This document shows positions 1 through 22,600 of a stretch of 37,842 bases of DNA, one piece after another; within the stretch, counting starts at the first letter, position 1, and each line of letters starts with the position of its first letter. A program made the translations under genes and the position numbers. The notes below the pieces were generated by a model, which saw only the letters and a program-made list of their open reading frames with translations, made no database searches and was not told where the DNA came from. Source of the DNA: Clostridia bacterium (GTDB lineage: Bacteria > Bacillota > Clostridia > Christensenellales > Borkfalkiaceae); the NCBI GenBank assembly GCA_029062045.1, contig JAIDQV010000113.1, positions 1 to 37,842 on the forward strand, in the 5' to 3' direction.

Positions 1-17
1 CATTAAACCGCAATCAT

Positions 18-69
18 TTATACGAAGTTGAAATAGATGTGCCATCTATTGAAACGCAACTTCGTATAA
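18..69. repeat. Imperfect inverted repeat with arms resembling loxP arms (TTATACGAAGTTG ... CAACTTCGTATAA), inner arms AATAGATG/CATCTATT
   Basis: Read directly: 13-bp outer arms 18-30 and 57-69, 8-bp inner arms 32-39 and 43-50, 3-nt loop; 11 bp of each outer arm (TATACGAAGTT/AACTTCGTATA) identical to a loxP arm but in the opposite polarity. Confidence 0.85.
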
Positions 70-80
70 CTAACATTATA

Positions 81-1757
81 TCAATTAACTAAATGTAATG
101 TTTTTAATTGGTCTAAAATTTGTTTATCTAACTCTTTCCCTTCTTCAATTAGAGCCGAATATTCTTGCTCAAAAGTAGCCAGCTTTGACTGAAACTCTTC
201 GGGAGTAATATCAATATGTTCAATTACAATTTCAAAGTATTGCCCCGCACTAAAAGAATATTTCTTATTTTCAATTTGTTCAAATGATACTTTTATTGCA
301 AAATCTTTCTCCTCCTTTTTCGAAATAAAAGTACTAATTATTAATTTTCCTTCTTCAGGTGACAATGCGGTCTTTTGATTTTTTCCTTCCTTAACTTTAC
401 TACCAAGCTTTGACGCATCAATAAGCATAACTTCATTGGTTTCGTTTGTTTTTTCAATAAAAAGTACAGAGACATTGGTCCCAGTGTTTGCAAAAATATT
501 AGAAGGCATAGAAATAACACCTTTTAGTAAGCGATTTTCAATCAAGTATTCTCTTATTGTATATTCAATGCCATTTTGTGCCGTTAAGAATCCCGTGGGA
601 ACAACAATCGCTGCTTTGCCGTTCTCTTTTAAAGAGAATATGATGTGTTGAATGAACATCAAGTAAATTCCCATCGATTCTTTTTTCTTCTTAGGAACAC
701 TTGGAATACCAGCAAAAAATCGTTTTAACCCGTTAGCATCTTTGACTTCACCCCAATTATTCTCAATCTCATCTCTAGTGGAAGAGAAATCGGTTTTGAA
801 CGGTGGATTAGAAACGATATAGTCAAATTTTTTTAAACCTGATGTCTGTTCGTGTTCAATAACATAATGGGCCGGATGCAATAAGGTATCACCTTGAATA
901 ACATTGTGCAAGGAATCTGTTAAGCCGTTTAATAAAAGATTAATTCTTAAAAATCTTGATGATTTATTAGAAATATCTTGAGTATATACAATTGCCCGAG
1001 AAATATTATCTTCACTACCTAATTCGTTTGCTAAGTGAAGGATAAGTGAACCAGAGCCTGCAGACGGATCATATATCTCAGATGCTTGGATTTTTTCTGA
1101 CATTCCAACAAGAATTTCTGCTATTATTTTTGAAATAGCCTGTGGCGTGAAATATTCAGCATATGTTCCGCTTGCAACATTGTAATTTTTAATTAGGTGT
1201 TCAAAGATACGAGAATAAAAGTCAAAGTTATTTTTAAATGCGCCGCTGAAATCGAAGCGTTCTTGAGCAATTGTCGCAAAAATTCTTTTAGCAAAATTAT
1301 TTTTACTTTGACTTTCAACTTCTCCTGAAATAGCCTCAAACAACTTTTTCCTCGTTCCATCGGCCGTTTCGATATTAAAATTTTCATTTCTTGGATTAGT
1401 AGAAATACGATCTAGCGCAGCATCAAATTTTTCATAAAATTTGGTATCCGCTACTTGTTGCATTAGGGCTTCAATAGTATCCTCTTCACCAAATGCAACA
1501 TTACCGGAGTAAGTATCGTAAAATGCATCCAACTCATCGTTTTGATTAGCTAAAATAGTCTTATAATCAACACCAATTGATCTTGCAAACTCTTTAATGC
1601 TATGCATAAATTTATCATTAAGAAATTTATACAAGAAAATAGTAGTGACTATTCTTTCTTCACTAGCTTGATTGGCTAATCCATGTTGCGAACATATGCC
1701 TTGCAAATCGTTAATTATTTCGTCAATTCTACTTTCTAACGAAGAAATTTCCGTCAT
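81..1757 (-). CDS. hsdM: Type I restriction-modification system DNA methyltransferase (M) subunit
   Basis: SAM motif DPSAGSGSLILHLANELG, catalytic NPPF motif, HsdM-type N-terminal helical region; next to hsdR. Confidence 0.95.
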   Translation of the reverse strand: MTEISSLESRIDEIINDLQGICSQHGLANQASEERIVTTIFLYKFLNDKFMHSIKEFARSIGVDYKTILANQNDELDAFYDTYSGNVAFGEEDTIEALMQQVADTKFYEKFDAALDRISTNPRNENFNIETADGTRKKLFEAISGEVESQSKNNFAKRIFATIAQERFDFSGAFKNNFDFYSRIFEHLIKNYNVASGTYAEYFTPQAISKIIAEILVGMSEKIQASEIYDPSAGSGSLILHLANELGSEDNISRAIVYTQDISNKSSRFLRINLLLNGLTDSLHNVIQGDTLLHPAHYVIEHEQTSGLKKFDYIVSNPPFKTDFSSTRDEIENNWGEVKDANGLKRFFAGIPSVPKKKKESMGIYLMFIQHIIFSLKENGKAAIVVPTGFLTAQNGIEYTIREYLIENRLLKGVISMPSNIFANTGTNVSVLFIEKTNETNEVMLIDASKLGSKVKEGKNQKTALSPEEGKLIISTFISKKEEKDFAIKVSFEQIENKKYSFSAGQYFEIVIEHIDITPEEFQSKLATFEQEYSALIEEGKELDKQILDQLKTLHLVN

Positions 1758-1768
1758 CTATTGTCTCC

Positions 1769-4700
1769 TTAACTGTATAACTGTAAATTGATATAAATCC
1801 TAACCAATAAAGAGTCATACCATTCCTTTAGTTTAAGTTCTTTATATATACCTTGTTTTAATAATAGCGTTGTAACCTTCTTTTTTACATTATCAATAAA
1901 GTTAGTCCTACCAAGAAGAATTAAATTATTTACAGAACTAATGCTTGTAACATTTTCTTGTATAATCTTAAGCAACTGTAATAACTTATCTTTATTAACT
2001 TCAGGCATTTCTTTCACGATATCCTGATATGTTTTTACATAAGCAAATTGATTTTCAAAGCGACTTGCCAGCTTCTCATTTTCACGATTTATTGCTTCCG
2101 CTTCATTGATTGCTTTTAATAATTCTTCGTCAATTGCGTCAAGATCGGACAAGTCGCAAATTTGTAACTTCTTAAGAATTTCTTTAATAAATTCATTAAG
2201 TTTAATAACCCTCTCATCGTCTTGGTTTTTAATCTCTTGTACAGCCTTAGACAAGTGTGCAAAACGCTCTTTTGTTTTAATCCCTCCGCCATGCAATGAC
2301 ATATCTAAAATAGTCGTACGCACTTTAATAAAACTGAAAACAATTTCGACCACTTCCTTTTGAGAAAGAATCCTCATTGCATCTACAGGCCTATCTGTTA
2401 TATTAAGAAAATCTATTCTACTCTGAACCAACTTCAACAGCTGACGAATTTCATCTTTGTCTATTTGTTTTGCCTGTTCATCCGCTCTTGATAGTAAAAA
2501 TTCAGTTTTACAGTCTTTGATTTTATTCAGTAGCGACCGCAATGTAAAAAGTTTTCTTTTATCTCCTATGCCATTAAGAAATTTATTAAACTCTTCTTTA
2601 TTCCTTGTATCACAAAAATTATCCAGATCCTCTACAGCTTTTTCATATTTCTTTTGAATATCATCTGGGCTTACAAGAAGCGTAGTTGGACTTACTCCTT
2701 CGCCATCGTCATCTGTAGTTTCAAACTTTAATTCCTCTAAATAACTTGCGACAGTTCTATCATATTCCTCTGTTATATCAACAAAATCTGAGATATACCC
2801 GTAACGATAAATAGTCCCATTTGGACTTTTATATGGCCTATTAACACGAGAAATAGTTTGTAGTAGAGAATGCTCTTTGGGTGCTCTCAATAAGTACATT
2901 TTTTTAAGCCTGTCCACATCATATCCCGTTGTCAACATTAAGTGCACAATCATTATGTCTATCTTATATGCGGGATCTTTAAAAGCTAATTGATTTTGTT
3001 TATTAACTTCAGATGGAATAGACTCATCACTGATAACAAGCCGAGTTTTTAAGCGTGAATTATTTTCAAACCATTTTTGCATTTTGATTGCTTGCGGATT
3101 TGAATTACATACAATCATTCCACCAATGGTTTTATCATCATTAATAAATCTAAAATTCGTAAAATCCGCATCGATATACTTACCTAATGCGCAGATATAT
3201 TCGTCTGATTCCAAAATTTTTGCAGTATCGCCAGACTTTAACTCTAATTCAAGGTTGCGTTTTATCTCTGCTTTTGCAACAGTTTCAATTTCTTCTTTCT
3301 TAATTTTTAAAGTGTAACCGTCAAGAATTGACTTGTCGTAAAAATACTTATGTATATATTCCCCAAAACGGAGATTAGAACGTTCTTTTTTGCCAAGCAA
3401 AGGGGTGCCCGTTAAAGCAATAAAAATTGCGTCCCTATCTATAAGCATTAAATTTCTATAAAATTCACCGGTACCTTTTGAATAGCTTCTATGCGCTTCA
3501 TCAATAAAAAATATCCTTTGTATTTTTGCGTTATAATCGTTATGTGGCGATGGTAAGCTATCAGCAAATTTCTGTATATTTACTATAGTGCAAGAGCCAG
3601 AAGCATTTTTACTTTTGCCAACCGATAACGGCTTGCTTAATTCTTTAATAAATGATTGCTTATCATCAACCCCTATAGCTTCACAATTTCTAATAGAATA
3701 TTCGATTTTAGTTTGCTCTAAAAGGTCAAGCCTATCTACTACATAAAAAAACCTAGCCTGAATTCCTTTTTCAGCATAATAATCACTTAAAATACGGTTA
3801 CAATAAATACTTAAAGCGGTTTTACCGGAACCTTGAGTATGCCAAATTATACCGCTTTTTGTCCCTCTTTTGAGCCTTTCGACTAACGCTCTAGCAGCAA
3901 AAAACTGGGGATAGCGCATAATGTGTTTTTCCCTGACAGCTTTTTCAACATATAAAATCCCATAGTGGATAAAAAACAGAAATCTTTCTTGTTCAAAAAT
4001 TGATGAACAAAATGCATTACAAGGAGAGTCCAATTCCAAACTCGTCTTAAATTCTTCACTTTCCTTAATATCAGGATCATATTTATTATCTTGTAAAATA
4101 AAACTTATTTTTTCTGCGTCATCGGGAATAAATCCATCTGTTTTCTTTTTCTCATCACGGAAAAAGTTGAATGTAGTTTTCTTGCCATTAGGAGTAGAAT
4201 AAAACGAACCGGCCTTGGGGTCTTCACCTCTATCATCGTCAGACTCGTATTCCATATTGTTCGAAAAACAAGTCATTTGTAGCATATTAAAGAACCGCCG
4301 ATTTTCGGGTTCTTCATATCGTTCATTTACCATCCTATCAAATTCGACTTGTATCCCCCCTTCATTATTGGAATTTTTCACTTCGAGAAACGCAAGGGGA
4401 ATACCGTTAACCAAAATGGTTATATCAGGACGAAAAGAACCTTTTAATTTAGATCCAAAAATCAGTTCATTTACAACATAAAATGAATTGTTGCTAATAT
4501 CTTGAAAATCAATAAGCCTTATCCTGTCAACCGGATTAACAAGCCATTCATAAAAATCCTTACCTAAATCATTATTTTTAATTGAAGCAAGTATCTCTCC
4601 CAGTAAGGAATTTATCTCGTCATCCGTAAAATTCCTTCCATTGATTTTTTCTATTGCAGGCTTAAATAAATTTTTAAAAATTTTAGTTTCATTATCTACA

Positions 4701-4810
4701 AAACCACTCTTTATTGCATCACGATACGACTGATACTTATAACCCAATCGTAACAAGTGAATTGTAGCAGGGAATTTAACCCTTGTGTTCTCATTATAAG
4801 GATTTGACAT
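1769..4810 (-). CDS. hsdR: Type I restriction endonuclease R subunit
   Basis: PD...ExK nuclease motif (FRPDITILVNGIPLAFLEVKN), Walker A HTQGSGKTALS, DEAH box FFIDEAHRSYSKG, QTISRVNRPY helicase motif; RBS GGAGG upstream. Confidence 0.95.
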   Translation of the reverse strand: MSNPYNENTRVKFPATIHLLRLGYKYQSYRDAIKSGFVDNETKIFKNLFKPAIEKINGRNFTDDEINSLLGEILASIKNNDLGKDFYEWLVNPVDRIRLIDFQDISNNSFYVVNELIFGSKLKGSFRPDITILVNGIPLAFLEVKNSNNEGGIQVEFDRMVNERYEEPENRRFFNMLQMTCFSNNMEYESDDDRGEDPKAGSFYSTPNGKKTTFNFFRDEKKKTDGFIPDDAEKISFILQDNKYDPDIKESEEFKTSLELDSPCNAFCSSIFEQERFLFFIHYGILYVEKAVREKHIMRYPQFFAARALVERLKRGTKSGIIWHTQGSGKTALSIYCNRILSDYYAEKGIQARFFYVVDRLDLLEQTKIEYSIRNCEAIGVDDKQSFIKELSKPLSVGKSKNASGSCTIVNIQKFADSLPSPHNDYNAKIQRIFFIDEAHRSYSKGTGEFYRNLMLIDRDAIFIALTGTPLLGKKERSNLRFGEYIHKYFYDKSILDGYTLKIKKEEIETVAKAEIKRNLELELKSGDTAKILESDEYICALGKYIDADFTNFRFINDDKTIGGMIVCNSNPQAIKMQKWFENNSRLKTRLVISDESIPSEVNKQNQLAFKDPAYKIDIMIVHLMLTTGYDVDRLKKMYLLRAPKEHSLLQTISRVNRPYKSPNGTIYRYGYISDFVDITEEYDRTVASYLEELKFETTDDDGEGVSPTTLLVSPDDIQKKYEKAVEDLDNFCDTRNKEEFNKFLNGIGDKRKLFTLRSLLNKIKDCKTEFLLSRADEQAKQIDKDEIRQLLKLVQSRIDFLNITDRPVDAMRILSQKEVVEIVFSFIKVRTTILDMSLHGGGIKTKERFAHLSKAVQEIKNQDDERVIKLNEFIKEILKKLQICDLSDLDAIDEELLKAINEAEAINRENEKLASRFENQFAYVKTYQDIVKEMPEVNKDKLLQLLKIIQENVTSISSVNNLILLGRTNFIDNVKKKVTTLLLKQGIYKELKLKEWYDSLLVRIYINLQLYS

Positions 4811-6815: not shown

Positions 6816-7958
6816 TTATTTTAAAATCAATTGCTTTGAGGTGTTCTTTTGACGAATGGGTTTTAAACGATAATCTTTACTTTTATCATCTATAACCATT
6901 TTAAATACAGGTATTTTTTGTTTAAAGGCAATATTTCGTAATATTAGTTCATCAGAATCTTTAATTTTTCTACCTAAATATAGCGCACAAGGTTTTTTCC
7001 AAATATTAGCTGTTTGATCGTAGGGATAATTATTTGAATTATAGCTAACCGTCATGCGCCATTCTTTTTCATAATTCCATTTATTAAATTTATGAAAAAC
7101 TGTTTTTGTTTGCATAAAAATGTCTGAACATGTTATAGACGCTAATACTTTCTGCCATAATGGTTCAGGCACACGTAAATCAAATAGAAATTTTCTTGTA
7201 AACGCATCTTGCATTAAATATCTTGCATAATCAGTTGCCTCAAACATTTTGTCAGCATAAAAAATTGGTAACAATCTATTAAATTTTGGAGTTATACAAG
7301 TTACGCCAAGTTTGGGACAATTGTGACATTCATTATAGTGTTTTTCCCTAAAATCATAGGCTAATGCGAATCCAGAACTATTACTTGCGTAATGGCCCCA
7401 CATAAGCGGCGAACAAATATTTTCACTAAAAGATGAAATCTTTACTACATTCTGTGGCGTATGCGAAATAAATGGGAACTGCGCTTTAAAACCGTTTTCC
7501 ATAAATGTTTTGATAGATAAGCTCATTTCATTAATAGCTTTATTATCAGCGTTTTTAACAATTTCTCTAGCATTCTCGATATATTTAGTCCCAAAAAGGT
7601 CGTACAGTCTCTCGGGAATTGCGTCACCCTCTTTTAATGCTTTCAAAAATATAAGAGTACCGTTTATATCGAACAAACTGTTTAGCTCTGCTAAAATTTC
7701 ATTCTTATCACAATATAGAATTGCATCATAATCATCGTTCATCTTTGCGCCTGTAGCGAACCAAATCTGTTGATTACGAAAAGCGTTTATATTGTTCTCA
7801 TTACATTCTCTAAATTTGTATAACTGTGCTGGTGTATGTTTATCAACCCAATCATTTAGTGGCTTTAAAATCATATCCATTTCTTCTTGGGTTATGGTCG
7901 AAGGAATGATTGTATTATGTAATAAATTGCAATATTCACGATAATCCTTGTTTGTCAT
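6816..7958 (-). CDS. DUF2971 domain protein
   Basis: LYKFRECNENNINAFRNQQIWFATGAKMNDDYDA, SFSENICSPLMWGHYASNSSGFALAYDF, KFNKWNYEKEWRM pattern. Start assigned to ATG at 7958, preceded by GGAGAAAAT, rather than the longer ORF start at 7985. Confidence 0.8.
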   Translation of the reverse strand: MTNKDYREYCNLLHNTIIPSTITQEEMDMILKPLNDWVDKHTPAQLYKFRECNENNINAFRNQQIWFATGAKMNDDYDAILYCDKNEILAELNSLFDINGTLIFLKALKEGDAIPERLYDLFGTKYIENAREIVKNADNKAINEMSLSIKTFMENGFKAQFPFISHTPQNVVKISSFSENICSPLMWGHYASNSSGFALAYDFREKHYNECHNCPKLGVTCITPKFNRLLPIFYADKMFEATDYARYLMQDAFTRKFLFDLRVPEPLWQKVLASITCSDIFMQTKTVFHKFNKWNYEKEWRMTVSYNSNNYPYDQTANIWKKPCALYLGRKIKDSDELILRNIAFKQKIPVFKMVIDDKSKDYRLKPIRQKNTSKQLILK

Positions 7959-8173
7959 ATTTTCTCCAATATTATACCAGCACATAAACGAAACAAACTT
8001 GTGATATTTACTCTTATAGATGTGCTTGCTTTAATTTTTCAATATATTATATACCTTTTTTGTAATTATTCTTATATGAAATGATTATGTTTAAAATATT
8101 ATACAAAATTATAAGCGACATATCAATATCTATTTGCATTACGATTCTTATTTTTAATAGTAATTAAGAGTTT

Positions 8174-8640: not shown

Positions 8641-9486
8641 TTAATTGCTATTCATTCCGAATTTTCTAGTCATTAAAACTTCTTTCCAATATGTTTCACG
8701 CTCAATAATATACTCATTGCCCAAGTTCATATTGCACACTTCCAAAATTGAATACTTAAAATTGTTTCTATAATCAATTCCGTTATTGTGTAATATTTCT
8801 TTCAGTTCAATATTTCCGCCGTGTCCGTTTTTTGCATATTCAGACCAGCGTTGCCATATACAATCTTCGCCGTATGCACTACCTACATATTGTTTACCTG
8901 AAAGAGTGTCAACTATTAAATAAACACCTTTTACATTTGATAATGCGGATTTCCAAGTTGGAATGTTGTTTTCTATAATATACTTTAAAGTTTGATAAGA
9001 AATATTTACATTATCAAAGCCGGTAAAATCGTTTATCGTAACTCGTTTATCCAAAATTGAATAAACACAAATGTCCACAGGGTTAGCTCCGTTCTTTGTT
9101 TGCAATTCTAAACAAGGATATGAGGCTCGAAACTCTTTTTTATAATAAACAAAAACCCTGCCTATCATATCGCTTTGATTATCTATAAGCGTTAAATCGT
9201 AATGCCACCCGTTCCAACCGTTATTATGCGATATGGGCTGAGGCGTTTGATTATTAACTTTATAAATTCCACCAAAAAGCCAAATGTCTTTATCGTAATA
9301 AATTAACGAAATAACATATTCACGGTTAAAATTTTTATTTGTTTGGTCAGCTTGCCACTCTTCAAATTCGTTTATTAAAAACTTTCTGTAGGGCGCTTTT
9401 TTATCGTTTGCGCCAGTTGCAAAATGAATTTTATAATTTCTATAATCTTCTGGTTTTATAGTTAGAAAATCAACTAATTTTATCAT
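8641..9486 (-). CDS. GIY-YIG nuclease-family protein with uncharacterised N-terminal region
   Basis: C-terminal GVYLIVDTLSGKQYVGSAYGEDCIWQRW GIY-YIG core; start placed at ATG 9486 because the longer ORF to 9669 runs through the tRNA gene. Confidence 0.8.
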   Translation of the reverse strand: MIKLVDFLTIKPEDYRNYKIHFATGANDKKAPYRKFLINEFEEWQADQTNKNFNREYVISLIYYDKDIWLFGGIYKVNNQTPQPISHNNGWNGWHYDLTLIDNQSDMIGRVFVYYKKEFRASYPCLELQTKNGANPVDICVYSILDKRVTINDFTGFDNVNISYQTLKYIIENNIPTWKSALSNVKGVYLIVDTLSGKQYVGSAYGEDCIWQRWSEYAKNGHGGNIELKEILHNNGIDYRNNFKYSILEVCNMNLGNEYIIERETYWKEVLMTRKFGMNSN

Positions 9487-9563
9487 TTGTAACTCCACTT
9501 GGTTATTGTTACAATTATACAAGAACTTTTCTCTAAAATCAATACTGACATTATTTAAAACAA

Positions 9564-9594
9564 AAAAGACAAGCGATGTTGCTTGTCTTTTTTT
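9564..9594 (-). terminator. Intrinsic terminator downstream of tRNA-Gln
   Basis: Minus strand AAGACAAGC-aacatc-GCTTGTCTTTTTTG. Confidence 0.75.
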
Positions 9595-9668
9595 GGCTGG
9601 GGTAGCTGGATTCGAACCAACGAATGACGGAGTCAGAGTCCGTTGCCTTACCGCTTGGCGACACCCCA
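9594..9668 (-). tRNA. tRNA-Gln (anticodon CTG), CCA encoded
   Basis: TGGGGTGTCGCCAAGCGGTAAGGCAACGGACTCTGACTCCGTCATTCGTTGGTTCGAATCCAGCTACCCCAGCCA folds as a cloverleaf; anticodon loop CTCTGAC. Confidence 0.93.
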
Positions 9669-9762
9669 ATATATGTTTTTTGCCGTGATTGCTTAATTAT
9701 TATATATTTAACTTACAAAAATTACAAGCGTTTTTAAATGCGTTTTTAAATTTTAATATTGA

Positions 9763-11547: not shown

Positions 11548-12243
11548 ATGAAGAAAATACGCAACCCTTTTAAAAATCTTAATAAGTTCGAATGGATATT
11601 ATGGACATTTTCGCTGGCGGCGATAATAGCCTCTTTCTTTGCGGTTGGAAGCTCGGATTACGCCACCCTTGCCACTTCCCTTCTCGGGGTTACGGCGCTT
11701 ATCTTCGCCGCGAAGGGCGACGTGTTCGGAATGATAATTATGTTGATTTTCAGTCTGACATATTCATTCGTTTCGTTCATGTTCGGGTATTACGGCGAGA
11801 TGATAATTTATCTTTGTATGCAGCTGCCCTGTTGCACAGCTTCGCTTGTAAGCTGGCTGAAACACCCGTCGGACAAGGGCACCGCCGAAGTTAAAGTGGG
11901 CGAATTCAAAAAGAAGTACCTTGCTATTTTAATTCCCCTTGCCGTGGCGATAACGGTTGCGTTTTACTTTATTTTGCAAGCCTTCAACACACAAAACCTG
12001 ATAGTAAGTACTCTTTCCGTTACGACAAGTTTTGTGGCGTTGTTCCTGATGATATTAAGAGTGCCCGCCTATGCGGTTGCGTTTATATTTAACGATATAG
12101 TGCTGATAGTTTTATGGTCGCTTGCGTGTGTGCAGGATATAGGCTATTTGGCGCTTGCGGTGTCATTCGGGATATTTTTGATAAACGATACCTACACATT
12201 TATTTGCTGGACGAAGAGAAAGCGACAGTTACAAGAAAAATAG
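11548..12243 (+). CDS. pnuC: PnuC-family nicotinamide mononucleotide/riboside-type transporter
   Basis: Multi-TM protein with GVTALIFAAKGDVFGMI and FGYYGEMIIYLCMQLPCCTASLVSWLKHP, PnuC pattern. Confidence 0.8.
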   Translation: MKKIRNPFKNLNKFEWILWTFSLAAIIASFFAVGSSDYATLATSLLGVTALIFAAKGDVFGMIIMLIFSLTYSFVSFMFGYYGEMIIYLCMQLPCCTASLVSWLKHPSDKGTAEVKVGEFKKKYLAILIPLAVAITVAFYFILQAFNTQNLIVSTLSVTTSFVALFLMILRVPAYAVAFIFNDIVLIVLWSLACVQDIGYLALAVSFGIFLINDTYTFICWTKRKRQLQEK

Positions 12244-12245
12244 AA

Positions 12246-12284
12246 AAATCCCCGCAGGGCATAAAGCACTGCGGGGATTTTATT
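12246..12284 (+). terminator. Intrinsic terminator of pnuC
   Basis: AAATCCCCGCAG/CTGCGGGGATTT followed by TATT. Confidence 0.8.
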
Positions 12285-12298
12285 ATGGTGAATGGTGG

Positions 12299-18961: not shown

Positions 18962-19591
18962 ATGGCTAATTTATTTAAAGACTTTTACGGCTGGATTGAC
19001 AGCCTGCCCTTCGACACTTTAATTTACTTTATTTGGGGCTCTTATCTTGCAATTTTTCTTGTTGCGCTCGTGGCAACGCTTGCTTCCAAAAAAATTAAAA
19101 TTGCGTCCAAAAAACCCTTTTTAAGTTTAACAAATGCGTACGCCGCAATAACCCTTGCCGCGTTTATGTTGCAATGCGGTTTTGCGCAGTCTGTTACGGC
19201 GACGGTAACTTTCTGGGTAGTCGGCTATATTCTTTACGGTGCGCTTTGCGCATTGACAAAAAGCTACGCAACCCACAAGGCAAAAATTACACAAGCCGCG
19301 GCGGCCGAAACGCCTATACCCGTTCAGCCTATGCGAGCGATGAGGACGGATATGCAAGCGCAAGCTCAGATACCCGCCGCAAAAAACGGCGTACGGCTTG
19401 AACACGCGGTTGCCGTTACGGACAAACTTTTGACTAAGAATCTTGCAAAAACCGACAGGCAAGAGCTTGAAAAGCTGAAAAACACGTTGGCGGTGCTTAA
19501 AATTAAGGGCTCGCTAAACCCGACGGAAGCCGACATATTAAACGACAACTTCAACGCGCTTTTAAAACTTATGGCTAAATACAACGTCTAA
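18962..19591 (+). CDS. Hypothetical membrane protein
   Basis: Hydrophobic N-terminal helices; ORF open from 18932, first ATG in frame with membrane N-terminus at 18962. Confidence 0.5.
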   Translation: MANLFKDFYGWIDSLPFDTLIYFIWGSYLAIFLVALVATLASKKIKIASKKPFLSLTNAYAAITLAAFMLQCGFAQSVTATVTFWVVGYILYGALCALTKSYATHKAKITQAAAAETPIPVQPMRAMRTDMQAQAQIPAAKNGVRLEHAVAVTDKLLTKNLAKTDRQELEKLKNTLAVLKIKGSLNPTEADILNDNFNALLKLMAKYNV

Positions 19592-19592
19592 A

Positions 19593-19628
19593 CAAAGAAC
19601 CCCGCGGCGGTTGCCGCGGGGTTCTTTG
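19593..19628. terminator. Bidirectional intrinsic terminator between convergent genes
   Basis: Perfect 16-bp arms CAAAGAACCCCGCGGC/GCCGCGGGGTTCTTTG. Confidence 0.85.
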
Positions 19629-19629
19629 T

Positions 19630-22600
19630 TTAATTCAAATCAATTTGCCTTCGGGTGTGAATGTTTACAATCGTCTTGCTGATTTTATCTGGCGAGCAGT
19701 GCAAAATAGCTGCCGTAACCTTTCTATAAAGGTTAAGCTGGGCGGCGTATGTCTTTATAAGCTGTTCGTCCGTCTTGTGTGAATACTTGTAGTCTATAAT
19801 TTTAACGCCGAAGTCGCCGACGGCAAGAAGGTCTATCGCGCCTTGAAGTAAAACGTAGTCCTCTGCCTCTGTTTCCAAAACCTCTTTGGCTTTTAAACGG
19901 CACAAAAATTCCCGTTCCCTATATAGCGTTGCACCGTTTAAATCCGCAAATACGGGCATATTGAGAATTTGCGAAAGCTCTTCTCCATTTAAAATGCCGT
20001 ATTGCGCTTCGGTAATTCTTCCCGAATTCAAAAAATTCAGTTTTTCGCTTTCAATTTCTTCCACGGACTTCTTTGAAAAGTCGCAAAGCTCTAAAAATCT
20101 GTGGTAAGCTATGCCTTTTTCCGTACCCGTTTCCCCTTCGCCGCCGAAAAGCGCGTGGGCGACCTCGTGAGGCTCGTCGTCACGCATTCTCAGTATTGCC
20201 GAAGCCGAGCTTTTTACGGGCAAATCAACGCTTATTTCATTTGCATAGGGTTGCATAAAGCGTTTTTCAATGCTTTCCACAAGCGCGCCGTCGGGGGTGT
20301 GTAGCATTGAGCCGCCGTATTCTTCCGCCGAAAAGTCTTTTAGCTCGCCTGCCTCTTCGTGCAAGAATTCCTGCATATTGAAAAGGTCGGCATAGCACTT
20401 TGCGTCGAAGAAGTTTGTTTCGTCAAAGGGCTTGACCCTTTCTGCAAGTATATGCAAATTGCACATTGCGCGGGTGCAGGCAACGTAGAAAAGGTTTAGC
20501 TCGTTGAAAAGCTCTTCCTCTTCCTGCTTGGATTTTATTAGGCGGCGCAACACAGTCTTTTGCGCAAGCATATTTTCCCTGTCATAAGACTTGGGCGCAA
20601 AACCGAAGTTTTCGTCAAACGGCACTTCGGAATAGTCCTGCCCTTTGAAAGTTTTGCATATGTCCGCAATAATTACTACGGGAAATTCCAGACCTTTCGA
20701 GGCGTGCATAGACATTATTTTTATACTGTCCGACGGGGCGGGCGCGGGCGCGGAAACGTCGTAACCACCCGCCTTTATTTTTTGTAGGAATGCGGCAAGG
20801 GGCAATGATGCACCCTCTTCCGCAAGGCGCAAAACGTTTTTGACTTTTATCTCGCCACCGGCGCCGTAACCGCTTTCCAAACCGAAGGTTTCCAAAAGCT
20901 CGTCAATAAGCTCGCCTGTGGGCAAAACGTCCGCCAAATCCCTCAATTTTTGTAATTGCCCCCCGAATATGTGCAACTTTCGCGATATTTCACCTGGCAA
21001 GGCCGCATATTTTTCACAACATTTTCTAAACGATAACGGGGGCTTTACACCTTGAAAAGCAATTCTTATTTCGGCAAGCTCGTCCTCGCAAAATCCGCCC
21101 AACGGCGACAAAAGCGCGGTAACCAAAGGCACGTCCTGCTCGGAGTTGTCTATAAGCGAAAGAATATCCAGAATTTGCTTTACTTCCGACAATTCGCAGA
21201 CGTTTGCTTCCTGCGCGCCCGAAACGGTATAGCCCTGGTCGGTCAACGCACGGACTATTCCTTCAACCGAATCACCCTTGTTTTTGCGCGTAAGAATACA
21301 TATGTCGCCGCGCTGGGTGGGGACGTATTCTCCCTTCTTTAAATCGTAGTGGGTGCTTTGCAACTCTTTTTCGACGATTTCGAGAACGGCAAGCCCCTCG
21401 CGCGTGTGGCATGATTTTTGCCCGCCGTTTAAAACGGAATACACCTCAAGCTCGCATTCTTCTTCCTCTTCTTCGCCGAAAACGTGAATTTTAGCCTCTC
21501 CGTATCCCTCGGGGTACTGTCCGCCGGCACGCATAACAGAGGTTTTTTTATAGTCAACGCCGCAAGTATCGAGGCGCATTAGCTTTGAAAACAGGTCGTT
21601 TGCAAAGTTTATAACCCCGTCCGAGCTTCTGAAATTGCTTGAAAGTTTCAACGCGTTGCCTAAGCCCTTTTCAAAATTTTCGAATTTTTTAGTAAAAAAT
21701 ACTGATTTGCTGCCGCGGAAGCCGTAAATTGACTGTTTTACGTCGCCTACGAGGAAGGTTTCACCGCAAAGTGAAGAAATAATTTCTTCCTGCACGGGGT
21801 TTACGTCCTGGTACTCGTCCACAAAAACGTATTTAAAGCCCGAGTTTATTTCTTTTTTTATCCCTTCGTCGCTTAAAAGCTGCAAGGTTAAATGCTCTAA
21901 ATCGTTATAGTCAAGTTTGTTTTCCTCCGCCTTTACCTCGGCAAATTCCCTGTCAAGCTGTAAAAGAACGCTTGAAAACGCACTTGCGACTTTTCCACTG
22001 TTAAAGAACTTTTCCCGTTCCTTTTCTTCCGTATCCAAATCGGGGCAAAGGGCGGTATATTTTTTATTTACAGAATCTTTAAACGCCTTAAACGACGCCC
22101 CTGCTTCCTTGTCCTCTTGCGCGTCTACGGGCTTACGGCTTATTGTTAAAGCGGGCTTCGTACCGAACAGCCCGACTGCCTCATACGTCTTTAAAGCGCA
22201 TTCCATTTCTGTGAAAAGCTGATTGTAAATTGCCGCCTTTTGGGTTGCGGGAAACTCCGATTTAAGGCGTTCAACGGCACATATTAGGGGGGCAATCTTA
22301 TTTTTTAGGGTTAAAAAGTAACTTTCGCATACCCTTTTAAAGCCCTCTTCCGTATACAAATTTTTCGCGTTTTCCAAAATTTCGGTGTAATGCGCAACCG
22401 AACGCACTTCGGCGTAGGCTTCCCACAAAAGTTTCTTTAAAGATATATCGTTACGCTTTTTCATAAAGCACGACAAAAGAAGTTTGAACTCTTCGTCGTC
22501 CTCTTCGTAAAGTCTTTCAAAAAGGTTATCCACGGCACGCGCCTGCAAGTCGCGCGCGACGGCATCGTCCGAAGAAATAATATCGAAGCCCGAATCCACC

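Follow-up and report, generated by a model that had tools for sequence, protein, structure and literature searches.

The left edge of the window (the whole stretch of 37,842 nucleotides analyzed here) probably carries part of a stored or inverted half-hsdS cassette, with positions 57-80 acting, as judged from sequence comparison, as the crossover site of a shuffling type I restriction-modification (R-M) locus. The window corresponds to contig 17 in a bin of 192 contigs (1.44 Mb, 82% complete); the contig ends at window base 1 and the bin is cut at the hsd locus. The hsdR and hsdM genes found in inverting (phase-variable) type I R-M loci are both present on the minus strand. The hsdM gene (81..1757) encodes a 558 aa protein matching Pfam N6_Mtase (1.8e-64) and PADLOC MTase_I (5.9e-188), and hsdR (1769..4810) encodes a 1013 aa protein matching Pfam HSDR_N (1.1e-23) and SWI2_SNF2 (1.3e-37), as well as TIGR00348 (8.3e-73, under the curated cut-off of that model). 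Two further minus-strand genes near hsdR, encoding a DUF2971 protein (6816-7985) that matches the PADLOC candidate PDC-S31 (1.3e-29) and a GIY-YIG protein (8641-9669) that matches UzuA (1.1e-62), suggest that the contig end harbours a small defence island.

Directly after hsdM, and antisense to it, the plus strand encodes the truncated 3' end of an hsdS gene (3..92), with 29 visible codons reading LNRNHLYEVEIDVPSIETQLRITNIISIN and a stop at 90-92; the fragment overlaps the last hsdM codons, and its 5' part lies beyond the contig end. An HsdS profile, built here from hsdS genes that accompany HsdM relatives, finds a match in this frame alone (E 1.3e-5), over model positions 129-155, where the first recognition domain ends and the central helix begins. 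A phmmer search with the fragment peptide against 10,293 ORFs of related loci returned hsdS products for all of the top 13 matches, although the E-values are modest, 0.02 at best, in keeping with a query of 29 residues; a Pfam search with the 27-residue fragment peptide by itself gave no match, the peptide being too short. These results place both arms of the palindrome that motivated the analysis (18-69) inside one antisense hsdS fragment. The original prediction correctly positioned this palindrome immediately downstream of hsdM, at a place where hsdS was expected to continue off the edge. An hsdS sequence is indeed found there, but its truncated 3' end is already inside the window and on the opposite strand, and the palindrome sits in the tail of that fragment rather than in a gap between hsdM and hsdS.

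The last codons of the fragment (QLRITNII) are encoded by positions 57-80, and the putative crossover site, CAACTTCGTATAACTAACATT, covers the QLRITNI codons (57..77, plus strand). The same 21 bp recur in a congener, G096, whose HsdM (contig C77) is 44% identical to that of the window. In this genome, an antisense half-hsdS (190 aa, PF01420) follows the hsdM stop and the contig ends exactly at GTACAATGTTAGTTATACGAAGTTG, which reads CAACTTCGTATAACTAACATTGTAC on the hsdS strand and matches window positions 57-80 at 23 of 24 aligned positions. By eye, this terminal segment encodes QLRITNI, which ends a second half-hsdS located upstream; the stop codon of that gene and the start codon of the following one overlap (ATGA). 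The proximal cassette terminates in the related CAACATTCAATAACTAACACTATAC. The two tandem half-hsdS ORFs of G096 also contain 25-nt direct repeats with 76% identity. No suitable tyrosine recombinase was found in the G096 bin, nor any copy of its half-hsdS in viral contigs.

The three aligned site copies read ACTAACAT, ACTAACAC and ACTAACAT at the same 8 bp, and suggest an arm-spacer-arm arrangement made up of CAACTTCGTATA, ACTAACAT and TATAT. The possible strand-exchange spacer would occupy positions 69..76 of the plus strand, flanked by ...GTATA and TATAT.... In such an arrangement, the 11 bp that resemble loxP would constitute a single recombinase arm bordered on the right by the 8-bp spacer, and the copy of that arm at 18-30 would have no role. 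The bin contains no second copy of the site, and the extended site was found only in this genome among 396 genomes of the order (this one included) and in no viral contig.

Among the species genomes, 80 loci encode an HsdM relative; 79 were analyzed, and 72 of them have at least 400 bp downstream of hsdM. The next gene is a sense hsdS in 66 of these 72 loci and an immediately antisense hsdS in none, so the window and G096 have an unusual layout in common. In the locus designated L040, with an HsdM 67% identical to that of the window, hsdM is accompanied by a convergent tyrosine recombinase gene, a half-hsdS in antisense orientation and a full hsdS. The sole exact inverted repeat of at least 13 bp in L040, the 18-bp CAACATAGTTGATATTAT, is common to the half and full hsdS genes, falls at model position ~151 in both, and corresponds codon for codon to the window site. 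L040 thus contains two hsdS copies in opposite orientations sharing a repeat; at the window locus, one antisense fragment and one copy of the site are assembled. In-silico inversion at the L040 repeat produces a new full-length, in-frame HsdS of 366 aa in which the recognition domains are swapped, with the old domain passing into the half gene, indicating that, in a relative of the window system, the anatomy allows for switching at these codons. In viral contigs, one HsdM relative was identified (L164), accompanied by a plain sense hsdS. A similar hsdS repeat core, approximately TAAAYGATAATTTA, is present in L117 (9917-9942 and 11539-11564), L085 (8193-8221) and other loci, which come from an Akkermansiaceae bin and an Acholeplasmatales bin.

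The bin encodes five tyrosine recombinases, none of them near hsdM on the window contig, and no hsdS other than the fragment described above was detected in it (82% complete) by Pfam or by our own alignment, including a second hsdS of the window type. One of the recombinases lies on a 1034-bp contig (L038, G000:C159), where it is convergent (196-1032, minus strand) to an hsdS 3' end (1-159, plus strand). This enzyme is 58% identical to that of L040, 93% identical to that of the congener G017 and 88% identical to that of G018, and the contig shares 79% DNA identity over 910 bp with the shuffling locus of G017, whose hsdM is a different one. Furthermore, the LLPxLL tail present in 55 of 68 long hsdS genes from the window's HsdM relatives is missing from the C159 hsdS end, which has a G017-type tail. 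Taken together, these data indicate that C159 is probably a second shuffling hsd locus, and we judged assignment of its recombinase to the window locus unlikely; as the search of the bin turned up no other hsdM, however, it may still belong there. A tyrosine recombinase of the predicted kind is available in the genome, but probably serves another hsd locus. The G017 and G018 loci, from the same genus, have hsdS genes of either orientation flanking a tyrosine recombinase gene, yet differ from the window in their hsdM (about 27% identical) and their repeats (ATAATCGCCATTATGAGAAGATTGGG). In two complete shuffling hsd loci of this genus (L159, 4505-8940; L160, 3942-8390), a recombinase is surrounded by multiple hsdS genes, some in each orientation, with inverted repeats of up to ~300 nt and 88-91% identity.

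Several contigs in the set terminate at hsdS repeats. The contig of G707 (HsdM 43% identical) ends within hsdS at GATAAACGATAATTTA, which is the L085 repeat (TATAAACGATAATTTA); that of L118 ends at TAAATTATCATTT, the repeat of L117; and that of L069 ends three bases beyond ATAAATGATAATTTA, a motif of the same kind. More broadly, the contigs of L165 (6509-6524), L118, L069 and L149 end at, or at most 3 bases from, hsdS inverted-repeat motifs, and several further truncated contigs stop elsewhere in hsdS. The window contig ends 56 bp before the site, a less exact fit to this pattern than that of G096. With contigs stopping at such repeats, hsdS seems to be absent from a bin precisely at the loci where it varies.

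The palindrome itself is real and has the sequence and coordinates originally described. Read directly from the sequence, it consists of a left outer arm, TTATACGAAGTTG (18-30, plus strand), over the LYEV codons at the end of the recognition domain; inner arms AATAGATG (32-39) and CATCTATT (43-50) separated by TGC (40-42); GAAACG (51-56); and a right outer arm, CAACTTCGTATAA (57-69). The outer arms pair at 13 of 13 bp across 26 bp and the inner arms at 8 of 8. Its single-strand folds, at -21.4 kcal/mol as RNA (z -4.1) and -13.6 as DNA (z -5.4), were each equalled by none of 200 shuffles. Dinucleotide shuffling of bases 1-110 produced 13-bp inverted repeats with gaps no longer than 60 in 6 of 20,000 trials, and synonymous recoding of the encoded peptide did so in 39 of 100,000, making local chance an unlikely source of a feature that was, nonetheless, chosen post hoc. 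The resemblance to loxP is also genuine, with 11 bp of one arm (AACTTCGTATA) matching. As had been noted from the start, this is not vector loxP: the arms are reversed relative to loxP and stand 26 bp apart, instead of forming 13-bp arms around an 8-bp spacer. A single loxP-like layout can be drawn (57-68, an 8-bp spacer, 77-89), but its second arm is poor and there is no Cre.

That the palindrome is a functional element in its own right, serving, once folded or paired, as a recombination site that has two loxP-like arms, is nevertheless very improbable, even if its perfect outer arms and additional inner arms are rarer than local chance would provide. The spacer is not of 6-8 bp, and one coding fragment holds both arms, which argues against their acting as a recombining pair. 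No second exact TTATACGAAGTTG, of the kind that the original prediction called for, exists in the window or in the remainder of the bin, where other matches contain mismatches and are attributable to chance; exact arm matches in other congeners, G096 excepted, fall in unrelated sequence. In addition, the conserved segment includes the right arm alone, the left arm being ordinary coding sequence, and folding of the proximal G096 cassette yields no palindrome (z -0.66; the upstream arm of the second cassette lies beyond the contig), indicating that such sites do not as a rule carry the palindrome. The same G096 result weighs against a terminator, attenuator or other RNA element at the 3' end of hsdM. 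This reading is highly unlikely despite the stable RNA fold at that position and the frequent need of convergent genes for a terminator, since a U-tract is absent from both strands and a scan for terminators gave no hit, whereas a Rho-independent terminator combines a G+C-rich stem with a U-tract. Near-perfect, G+C-containing hairpins at gene ends elsewhere in the window (19589-19632 and 12240-12286) are, unlike 18-69, probably ordinary terminators. A fold-back assembly artefact, for which the start of the palindrome 18 bp from the contig end could be taken as a sign, is extremely unlikely, as it would yield one long perfect palindrome and not an HsdS frame crossing both arms with profile support along its whole length. 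Most likely, the palindrome is incidental, arising from the hsdS coding sequence that precedes the site.

Two other readings concern the hsdS piece and not the palindrome. The fragment might be a dead remnant of an old rearrangement that no longer recombines, as could be argued from its missing central helix, from the lack of a partner hsdS or recombinase assignable to the window locus, and from the rarity of convergent hsdM and hsdS genes among relatives. We regard this as unlikely, given that 21 bp are identical to G096 when the HsdM proteins share such limited identity, that the G096 contig breaks exactly at the site, and that the switch in L040, located at the same codons, looks intact. 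A tandem array of half-hsdS genes beside hsdM, each with a single recognition domain and ending in CAACTTCGTATAACTAACATT or a similar sequence, with domains moved to an expressed hsdS by excision or inversion, would accommodate the two overlapping cassettes of G096 and is quite unlikely for the window. A phase-variable hsdS locus, as originally proposed, is thus consistent with the antisense fragment, the G096 identity at a contig end and the L040 repeat, and the part of the proposal that is not supported is the role of the palindrome as the recombining pair.

Under the preferred reading of a stored or inverted cassette, the window edge would be the 3' end of a truncated hsdS cassette that has a single recognition domain, lacks the helix after it and sits immediately downstream of hsdM in antisense orientation. 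The short segment at 57-80 would be the target of a site-specific recombinase, probably one of the PsrA/Xer type, that would let the half gene recombine with the corresponding site of a full-length, expressed hsdS at another position in the locus. This partner copy of the site would be part of a further hsdS past the contig end, and the exchange would replace the first recognition domain and hence change the methylation target. We infer both the exchange at the window site and the type of enzyme acting on it.

Comparable systems are well described. In the pneumococcal cod/SpnIII locus, PsrA drives inversion at a 15-bp repeat (IR1) in hsdS (PMC7096588, PMC4948785), and at the tvr/SpnIV locus of the same species segments are excised and reintegrated between direct repeats (PMC6265443). 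A survey that used repeats of at least 20 bp reported that 3.9% of type I systems have duplicated hsdS genes carrying inverted repeats (PMC7394358). Like cod/SpnIII-type inverting loci, the window and its kin combine hsdR and hsdM with extra hsdS pieces in the opposite orientation (PMC4948785, PMC7096588, PMC7394358) and short repeats inside hsdS, with a tyrosine recombinase at the locus in L040. In contrast to cod/SpnIII, the window half gene is antisense directly after hsdM, with no sense hsdS next to it, and the site lies at the end of the recognition domain. The tandem half-hsdS genes and direct repeats of G096 resemble tvr/SpnIV, and excision could occur there; neither tvrATR genes nor circular forms were noticed. 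The anatomy of the window fits an inverting type I R-M system and, with a second hsdS, a shared repeat and a local recombinase unassembled, membership in this class is likely only.

The window locus is thus most likely a known kind of shuffling R-M system with one stored hsdS piece. This places a likely specificity-switching R-M locus in an uncultured genus and points to a candidate crossover segment at the very codons where an independent relative has its switch. Furthermore, these data suggest as a practical rule that metagenome contigs of shuffling loci tend to end at hsdS repeats, and such contig ends may offer a way to spot shuffling loci in fragmented assemblies.
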